Positions 50,399-54,397 of a stretch of DNA of 64,000 bases are shown here, piece after piece. Position numbers and translations under genes: made by a program. The notes below the pieces were generated by a model. That model ran no database searches. It had not been told where the DNA came from and was given only the letters and a program-made list of their open reading frames with translations. Every line of letters starts with the position of its first letter. Positions within the stretch are counted from its first letter, which is position 1. Source of the stretch: Bacillota bacterium (lineage in GTDB: Bacteria; Bacillota; Sulfobacillia; JAJZYS01; JAJZLH01); assembly GCA_021850485.1 (NCBI GenBank), contig JAJZLY010000025.1, positions 1 to 64,000 of the forward strand, in the 5' to 3' direction.

Positions 50399-51000
50399 TG
50401 CGCATCCCCAAGGGTGAAGGCATTGGTCTCACCTACAGCGTGATCTGGACCGGGGCCCGCATCTTGTTCGGCATCTTGTTTTCGATCCGGGTAGAAGGGC
50501 TTGAGCACGTTCCGGCCAGCGGACCTGCCATCATCTCGCCGAACCACCGCACGGCCTGGGACCCGCCGGTGGTCTCCACGCTGATCACCCGGCCGCTTCG
50601 GCACATGGCTAAGGCCGAGTTGTTCCCTTGGCTGGGGTTTGTCTTACACCGAATCGGCACCTATCCGGTGCGGCGCCAGGCCGTTGACATGCACGCGATC
50701 CGGCACAGTCTGACCTTGTTGCGCGCCGGCCGGCTGATTTGCATTTTCCCCGAGGGCACTCGAAATCGCAGCGGCCAACTCGGGCCAGCCAAGAGCGGTG
50801 CGGCCCGGCTCAGCGTTCAGACGGGAGCCCCCGTGATCCCAGTCGGCATCTCCGGTCACTACGGTTTACGCCAGCGGGTGACCTTCCGCTTCGGCCCGCC
50901 GGTCACCCTGCACGACGATGACCAAGACGACAAGCGGATCATGGATGCCATCGCCGGGCTGATCGCAGGAGGGCCGCCCACACCGCCGCCCCTGGCCTGA
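50398..51000 (+). CDS. plsC: 1-acyl-sn-glycerol-3-phosphate acyltransferase
   Basis: Acylates lysophosphatidic acid to phosphatidic acid, the substrate of CdsA encoded earlier. The 200-residue protein has the HX4D motif in SPNHRTAWDPPVV near residue 44 and FPEGTRNRSGQLGPAKSG near 118. The start is ATG at 50398 (TGATG junction with cmk); GTG at 50395 is equally placed. One N-terminal hydrophobic stretch suggests membrane association. The rpsA promoter begins two bases after its stop. Confidence 0.93.
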   Translation: MRIPKGEGIGLTYSVIWTGARILFGILFSIRVEGLEHVPASGPAIISPNHRTAWDPPVVSTLITRPLRHMAKAELFPWLGFVLHRIGTYPVRRQAVDMHAIRHSLTLLRAGRLICIFPEGTRNRSGQLGPAKSGAARLSVQTGAPVIPVGISGHYGLRQRVTFRFGPPVTLHDDDQDDKRIMDAIAGLIAGGPPTPPPLA

Positions 51001-51001
51001 T

Positions 51002-51030
51002 TTGACATCCCGCCGGCCCCCACCTATGAT
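51002..51030 (+). promoter_or_regulatory. Strong sigma-A type promoter for rpsA
   Basis: TTGACA (6 of 6), a 17-base spacer, and TATGAT (5 of 6): the best housekeeping-type promoter seen in the window. Transcription should start near 51037, leaving a leader of about 140 nt that contains an intrinsic terminator. Confidence 0.8.
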
Positions 51031-51036
51031 GAGTCG

Positions 51037-51146
51037 GTAGCCCCACGGTACTCGCAACGGCCACCCGATTCAGACCATCGACGGCGACAAGCGGTCACGG
51101 TTGTGAGAACGGATCAGGGGCTGTAAAGCCCCCGTTTTTTGTTTTT
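51037..51146 (+). terminator. Leader terminator/attenuator before rpsA
   Basis: GGGGCT (51117-51122) and AGCCCC (51127-51132) form a stem followed by CG and a TTTTTTGTTTTT run, a convincing intrinsic terminator located downstream of the rpsA promoter and upstream of its coding region. The beginning of the leader carries another AGCCCC (51039-51044), able to pair with the same GGGGCT and prevent the terminator. The region is therefore either an attenuation switch for rpsA or the gene of a roughly 105-nt small RNA with partial readthrough. No known leader family was recognised. Confidence 0.6.
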
Positions 51147-51177
51147 GGCCAACGTCCTGGAAGGTGAGGCGGACACA

Positions 51178-52542
51178 GTGGAATCAACCAACGAGTCCCC
51201 GGTCGACGGCACCTTGCCGTTGGGCCCAGACGAAAAGGCGATCGAGCAGACGCCCGAGTCGGCGTCTAGCGAAGCCTCCGTCCCCGAGGCCGTTTCTACT
51301 AAGCCTGCGCCAGCCAAGAAGAAGGCAAGCAAGGCGGCCGCCAAGGATGCGGTCGCGCCTGAGTCGGAACCGGTGGCCGCTGACCTGGAGGTTCAATCCG
51401 CGCTGGACGCTGAAGTGCCGACCATCCAGCCCGGCGATCTGGTCGAGGGCAAAGTGGTTGAGTTGCACGCAGATCACGCCTTGGTCGATGTCGGGTACAA
51501 GTCTGAGGGATTCCTGCCCTTGGACGAGATCTCCCACCAGCCGATCACCCATCCCAAAGAGGCTCTCGCTGTCGGCGACGTGATCCAAGTCCTGGTCCTG
51601 CGTAACGACGGTGAAGAAGATGTCCTGCGCCTATCCAAGCGGCGAGCCGACGAGCGGGCCGTCTACGAACAGTTGCAAGAGGCGATGGCCGCCAAGACCA
51701 TCTTGGAGGCGCCAGTGACCGAGGTGGTCAAGGGCGGCCTGGTGGTCAACGTCGGCATCCGCGGTTTTGTACCCGCCTCCCAGGTAGAGCGGGGCTTCAT
51801 TGAGGACCTCAGCGGTTACGCTGGCCAAACACTGCGCTTGCAAGTGATTGAGGTGGATCGCCGCAAACGGCGGGTCATCTTGTCCCACCGCAAGGTGGTC
51901 GAGGCCGAGCGGGCCCAAGTCAAAGGGAAGTTGTGGGACACACTGGCCGAAGGGCAGCGGCTGAGCGGACGGGTGAAGAGCCTGACCGACTTCGGTGCCT
52001 TTATCGACCTGGGCGGCGTCGACGGTCTACTGCACATTTCGGAGATGAGCTGGAGCCGGGTGCGTCACCCTTCCGAGGTGCTGAAAGAAGGGGAGACGGT
52101 CGAGGTGGCCGTCTTGCGGTTAGACCGCGAGAAGGGTCGGGTATCGCTCGGCCTCAAACAGGTGCATGCCAACCCCTGGCAGGACATCGACCGCCGCTTC
52201 CCAGAGGGCTCGATCGTCAAGGGCGAGGTGGCCCGGCTCACCCCGTTCGGCGCCTTCATCAGCCTGGAGCCAGGTGTAGACGGATTGGTCCACATCAGCC
52301 ATCTCAGCGACGAGCGGATTGAACGTCCGGATGAGGTGGTCAAGATTGGCGACCAGATCCGGGTCAAGGTGCTGCGGGTCGATCCCGATCTGCAGCGCAT
52401 CTCGCTGAGCCTCAAGGAAGTGGCAGGCCCTGGGGTGGCAACTGTCTCCAGCCGGTCGGCCGGGGAGTCAAAAGCCACCATCGCCGACCTGTTGGACGAG
52501 GAGACCAAGCAGACCCTGGAGTCTGGCGAAGACGCCGACTAG
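51178..52542 (+). CDS. rpsA: S1 RNA-binding protein / ribosomal protein S1 homologue
   Basis: Multi-S1-domain protein (YpfD/RpsA type) that binds mRNA and probably the 30S subunit. The 454-residue protein has an acidic, Ala/Lys-rich N-terminal extension of about 80 residues, then four S1 domains: DLVEGKVVELHADHALVDVG near 87, a degenerate second with GGLVVNVGIRGFVPASQ near 183, RLSGRVKSLTDFGAFIDLGG near 260 and VKGEVARLTPFGAFISLEPG near 347. GTG at 51178 lies eight bases after AAGGTGAGG; the TTG at 51139 in the track is inside the terminator. It has its own strong promoter. Confidence 0.92.
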   Translation: MESTNESPVDGTLPLGPDEKAIEQTPESASSEASVPEAVSTKPAPAKKKASKAAAKDAVAPESEPVAADLEVQSALDAEVPTIQPGDLVEGKVVELHADHALVDVGYKSEGFLPLDEISHQPITHPKEALAVGDVIQVLVLRNDGEEDVLRLSKRRADERAVYEQLQEAMAAKTILEAPVTEVVKGGLVVNVGIRGFVPASQVERGFIEDLSGYAGQTLRLQVIEVDRRKRRVILSHRKVVEAERAQVKGKLWDTLAEGQRLSGRVKSLTDFGAFIDLGGVDGLLHISEMSWSRVRHPSEVLKEGETVEVAVLRLDREKGRVSLGLKQVHANPWQDIDRRFPEGSIVKGEVARLTPFGAFISLEPGVDGLVHISHLSDERIERPDEVVKIGDQIRVKVLRVDPDLQRISLSLKEVAGPGVATVSSRSAGESKATIADLLDEETKQTLESGEDAD

Positions 52543-54288: not shown

Positions 54289-54365
54289 CGGGCTGTGGCG
54301 CAGATTGGTAGCGCGCTACCTTGGGGTGGTAGAGGTCGTGGGTTCGAATCCCGCCAGTCCGACCA
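54289..54365 (+). tRNA. tRNA-Pro (anticodon GGG), CCA encoded
   Basis: A complete cloverleaf can be folded by hand. The acceptor stem is CGGGCTG/CAGTCCG (one G-T pair), the D stem GCGC/GCGC, and the anticodon stem CTACC/GGTAG with loop TTGGGGT giving anticodon GGG. The variable loop has 5 nt, and the T stem GTGGG/CCCGC carries loop TTCGAAT. Discriminator A is followed by an encoded CCA (54363-54365). It decodes CCC/CCU. TATACT at 54273-54278 is a -10 box without a clear -35. The gene sits 43 bases after der. Confidence 0.95.
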
Positions 54366-54369
54366 GTTT

Positions 54370-54397
54370 GGCCCTCGCCTGCGGGCGAGGGCCTTTT
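54370..54397 (+). terminator. Intrinsic terminator of tRNA-Pro
   Basis: GGCCCTCGCC and GGCGAGGGCC form a perfect 10-bp stem with a TGCG loop, followed by TTTTC, five bases after the tRNA CCA end. It also abuts the convergent minus-strand gene and could serve it in reverse. Confidence 0.8.

Follow-up and report, generated by a model that had tools for sequence, protein, structure and literature searches.

In the window, i.e. the whole 64-kb stretch of DNA analysed here, the region upstream of rpsA extends from plsC, which stops at position 51000, to rpsA itself, which encodes 30S ribosomal protein S1. The rpsA product scores 440.9 bits against NF005208/PRK06676 (cut-off 368) and is matched by PF00575 in four stretches, i.e. 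a true S1 of the Bacillota type, containing four S1 domains. Both this S1 family and the order of the genes are consistent with a Bacillota-type bacterium. Translation of rpsA starts at GTG 51178, downstream of a Shine-Dalgarno (SD) region that lies outside the hairpin of an intrinsic terminator. Counted from a transcription start predicted near 51037, the untranslated leader would be ~140 nt long. The features of this region are listed below. G000 denotes the genome of the window, and G001 and G002 denote two sister species of the same genus.

51002–51030, + strand: near-consensus housekeeping promoter, with a transcription start predicted near 51037 (strict scan and conservation)
51039–51044, + strand: 5′ AGCCCC, the first proposed antiterminator arm, able to pair with 51117–51122
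51059–51122, + strand: conserved leader core of 64 nt, a candidate sensor domain (three-species comparison)
51059–51071, + strand: candidate conserved antiterminator 5′ arm, GGCC-A-CC-C-GAUUC, forming 11 pairs with 51111–51122
51073–51102, + strand: candidate inner hairpin, GACC-AUC-GAC-G-GC-loop-GC-G-GUC-AC-GGUU (thermodynamic prediction)
51111–51122, + strand: switch strand GGAUCAGGGGCU, common to the antiterminator and the terminator, invariant in three species
51117–51146, + strand: intrinsic terminator with stem arms GGGGCT (51117–51122) and AGCCCC (51127–51132), loop GTAA, then CG-TTTTTTGTTTTT (strict scan)
51159–51169, + strand: SD region GGAAGGTGAGG (read from the sequence; largely kept in the sister species)
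51178–52542, + strand: rpsA, 30S ribosomal protein S1, 454 aa

Promoter and terminator of the rpsA leader

The initial annotation had described a TTGACA-17-TATGAT promoter and, shortly downstream, a good intrinsic terminator made of GGGGCT/AGCCCC and a T run. Both are present as described. The promoter, with TTGACA at 51002–51007, a 17-nt spacer and TATGAT at 51025–51030, is the sole strict promoter on both strands of the 64-kb window, and 40 dinucleotide shuffles of the window contained none. Similarly, the terminator is the single strict one on both strands of the window, with a mean of 0.025 in 40 dinucleotide shuffles, and in these shuffles promoter and terminator never occurred jointly. 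The pair is not due to chance. A looser scan for terminator-like sites found no excess. Strict U-tract terminators are rare, with four in 184 kb of the window's contig (G000:C25; shuffled mean 0), and most genes here therefore probably end another way, such as Rho. At 54289–54393 of the window, a likely terminator, the GC-rich hairpin GGCCCTCGCCTGCGGGCGAGGGCC-TTTT, lies behind a tRNA gene.

The promoter is kept before rpsA in both sister species (TTGACA-17-TAT[GC]AT), and in two other families of the order rpsA has TTGACA at the corresponding position, with 17–18 spacing. The three genus genomes have identical terminator stems and differ in the loop, but a strong U-tract is limited to G000, where it scores 5.39, compared with about 2.5 in the sister genomes. 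Because both sisters have an interrupted U-tract (TTGTCGTGTTT or TTGTCGTATTT), efficient intrinsic termination is not conserved in the genus. Strong termination in the sister species is unlikely, although weak termination is possible, considering that T-box hairpins with scores as low as 2.7–2.8 also occur in these genomes.

As assessed by a scan of the whole 1.61-Mb genome, TTGACA-N16-18-TATNAT occurs at six sites, and the reversed control pattern at none. One of these near-consensus promoters precedes a SAM riboswitch and its terminator, and another precedes a T-box leader and its terminator, upstream of a trpE-like gene. Others precede rpsU-, greA- and ArsR-like genes (names read from translations). 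The U-tracts of the clearer SAM and T-box terminators of the genome score 4.5–5.3, and that of rpsA scores 5.4. Like the SAM riboswitch (RF00162) and the T-box (RF00230), the rpsA leader has a TTGACA promoter, a conserved putative sensor and a T-run terminator, but its core is unrelated to theirs in sequence and, having no Rfam match, displays neither the aptamer nor the T-box motif. No other circumstantial evidence for attenuation is as strong as this layout, which is that of two known attenuators. G000 has two SAM riboswitches with T-run terminators (G000:C17:72989-73105 and G000:C2:111850-111946), the T-box leader upstream of the trpE-like gene lies at G000:C20:83389-83645, and in each of the three genus genomes there are nine T-box matches, the majority below the Rfam gathering score.

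A conserved core located only before rpsA

The leader was compared in the three genus genomes, in each of which it lies before rpsA; in G002, a contig end separates the leader from most of the gene. Between species, 60–62 of the 64 core columns are identical (94–97%). The corresponding values are 10–17 of 26 columns for the stretch 5′ of the core, and 12–15 of 21 for the stretch behind the hairpin. In the same genomes, 4-fold degenerate sites of rpsA are 53–64% identical and second codon positions are 88–91% identical; constraint on the core therefore exceeds that on the coding sequence of rpsA. The aptamer of a genuine SAM riboswitch is identical in 89–93 of 97 columns (92–96%) in these three genomes, and the core is about as strongly conserved. 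When 154 class genomes and 399 phylum genomes were searched with a covariance model of the core, only these three matched, each with one copy, which is always before rpsA. A consistent place upstream of an r-protein gene, as expected of an r-leader, is thus seen in 3/3 genomes with the core, and a single r-protein gene downstream is the basis on which r-leader ligands have been assigned (PMC7247131). Because the core hardly varies (about 5 of its 64 columns differ, with one consistent G-U to A-U change and one broken inner pair), it is without covariation support.

Other candidates were considered and rejected. Two weak BLAST matches lack the full core: the sequence at G000:C25:64918 and its orthologues reads as protein-coding, and that at G002:C14:23378 adjoins a transposase-like end. 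The genome itself gives no match elsewhere that would suggest rRNA mimicry by the leader. A coding core was suggested by one frame that keeps the peptide ATRFRPSTA(T/K)SGHGCENGSGA, with three of four differences on third positions, but it was ruled out by the lack of an in-frame ATG/GTG/TTG after the start site and by an early stop in G002. We estimate that three of four third-position changes in some frame would be expected by chance about one-third of the time. Direct reading of the three sequences revealed no conserved ORF with ATG/GTG/TTG past the predicted start, such as a leader-peptide attenuator would have.

Possible alternative pairings of the switch strand

It had been proposed that AGCCCC, at the beginning of the leader, could pair with GGGGCT and thereby disarm the terminator. 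This AGCCCC is present at 51039–51044, and the pairing stands in G000 and G002, but it is destroyed in G001. A second pairing, which involves the core, is possible in all three. It joins GGCC-A-CC-C-GAUUC to GGAUC-A-GGGGCU (51111–51122), with all 11 pairs possible in 3/3 species and one G-U to A-U change. Pairings as good were found in 24–32 of 300 shuffles, i.e. it is better than only about 90% of them, and its role as an antiterminator is only suggestive. Because the folding model prefers the AGCCCC pairing in shortened transcripts of G000 and G002, both antiterminators remain candidates.

The predicted inner hairpin has 9/9 pairs in two species and 8/9 in G001, where one pair is broken. When each state was enforced, the ensemble energies of the terminator and antiterminator were 1.8–3.6 kcal/mol apart in all three species. 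In this model, such a small gap is as expected for a switch, although it is not proof of one. The folding energy of the leader is unremarkable (z = -0.52).

Probable regulation of rpsA and rival explanations

It is very probable that rpsA is preceded here by a functional RNA leader that acts in cis. Because it combines its own promoter, a conserved RNA and a stop signal laid out like the known switches of the genome, S1 production is probably adjusted by this leader. The most likely reading is that of a lineage-specific r-protein leader, which would work by transcription attenuation and have S1 as its probable ligand. In brief, (i) RNA polymerase would start at the rpsA promoter and make the conserved core, (ii) the switch strand would either pair upstream, forming the antiterminator and allowing read-through into rpsA, or (iii) pair downstream with AGCCCC, forming the terminator, and (iv) a regulator bound to the core would decide between the two. 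The most likely regulator would be S1 itself, an excess of which over ribosomes may favour the terminator form. We lean towards this combination of a cis-acting leader, transcription attenuation and S1 as the most likely regulator. Taken separately, attenuation is likely in G000, where the complete attenuator layout is found (a promoter, a leader and an intrinsic terminator, all ahead of the start codon; both sisters have a weak U-tract), and S1 as the ligand is our leading guess, which we advance tentatively.

Transcription-attenuating r-protein leaders likewise consist of a promoter belonging to the r-protein gene, a conserved core and a terminator, and those known concern r-proteins other than S1. 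Gammaproteobacterial S1 is known to repress its own synthesis (PMC10931766); this autoregulation is translational and depends on lacking a canonical SD, as stated in a review of r-protein function up to 2023 (PMC10931766). The E. coli autogenous leader is likewise a structured rpsA leader, which makes S1 feedback an obvious hypothesis, but it exerts translational control through a special fold without a canonical SD (PMC10931766), whereas the leader in the window has a good SD, at 51159–51169, and a terminator. In EPEC, shortened rpsA transcripts with a premature 3′ terminus also occur, in stationary phase, but that case is proteobacterial, and both termination and processing are possible mechanisms (PMC10687069). 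S1 is absent from 20 newer r-leaders (PMC7247131). No described S1 leader with attenuation was found in the open-licence literature, and Rfam 15 gives no match at the rpsA leader above the gathering score. This agrees with the initial annotation, which knew of no such leader for rpsA in Bacillota; the leader appears to be previously undescribed. Attenuation of rpsA, one of the two readings originally put forward, holds as the best one on account of core conservation, the layout shared with two known attenuators and the lack of an Rfam match. The restriction of a strong U-tract to G000 speaks against it, as does the translational mode of E. coli S1 autoregulation, which operates without a good SD, unlike here (PMC10931766).

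A different rpsA leader is found in nine genomes of a sister family (f4), at the same place after plsC and about 150–170 nt before rpsA. It has a TTGACA-18-TATGCT promoter and four hairpins (P1–P4), and its helices are 97% paired, with three pairs changed on both sides among the nine genomes. Judged from sequence, this is a second, distinct leader, supported by covariation and unknown to Rfam. Both leaders have in common their place after plsC, a TTGACA promoter and a GC hairpin before a good SD, but the f4 leader differs in sequence and structure and has no U-tract (scores of 1.6–2.6). Homology between the two was suggested by the shared words GAUUC, CGAC, GYGAAAAG and GUCGU. We do not claim it, because the only hit of the f4 covariance model among the three leaders is one of 8.1 bits (E 3.1), in G002. 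A U-tract/CGACGGC pairing, like that of f4 P3, can form in G002, in part in G001 and not at all in G000. In a third family (G003, one sequence), a TTGACA promoter and possible hairpins precede rpsA. Separate lineage-specific leaders for one gene have been reported for other ribosomal proteins, and the rpsA pattern resembles this (PMC7247131).

That the core is as strictly conserved as a metabolite aptamer in the same genomes, and that S1 has no known need for a strict sequence target (PMC10931766), would also suit a riboswitch-like leader responding to a small molecule or to a protein other than S1, e.g. a growth-rate signal. We consider this unlikely, since rpsA is the one gene that carries the core, no Rfam riboswitch matches it, and the existence of a different leader for rpsA in the sister family resembles r-leader behaviour. 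A structured, genus-conserved leader acting on translation or mRNA stability, with the U-run of G000 being incidental, would account for the sisters keeping the hairpin without a U-tract and for the f4 leader being structured without one. This is improbable, because the genome very rarely has a U-run of 11/12 immediately after a GC stem, and such a run, if incidental, would be harmful upstream of an r-protein gene; in addition, the SD is outside the hairpin. We give similarly little credence to a separate trans-acting sRNA of ~105 nt, running from its own promoter to the terminator, with rpsA expressed mainly by read-through or from an upstream cmk-plsC promoter. Although G000 has a complete promoter-terminator unit and the core is highly conserved, the sisters have a poorer terminator, there is no copy away from rpsA, and the promoter is kept at the same place before rpsA in three families of the order.

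Attenuation by an r-protein leader would have wider implications, considering that detailed knowledge of S1 feedback is confined to gammaproteobacteria, in which the control is translational. The rpsA leader would allow one to ask whether the four-domain S1 of Bacillota-type bacteria self-regulates at all, and the compact core directly before the terminator would offer a defined RNA for examining how S1, described in E. coli as having low sequence preference, can recognise one RNA. In its strongest form, which we regard as somewhat unlikely, the leader would be a direct S1 sensor and the first S1-controlled transcription attenuator, replaced in the sister family by an unrelated S1-responsive leader. 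S1 feedback would then have arisen several times in a single order, each time with a different RNA.

Two minor observations concern the rpsA gene. In G001, the rpsA frame stays open across the whole leader and there is an ATG inside the terminator loop; automatic annotation may therefore set the rpsA start too early. In many genomes of the class, S1 lies in an open frame of 700–900 codons, where it is probably fused to IspH, whereas the order of the window has a separate rpsA.
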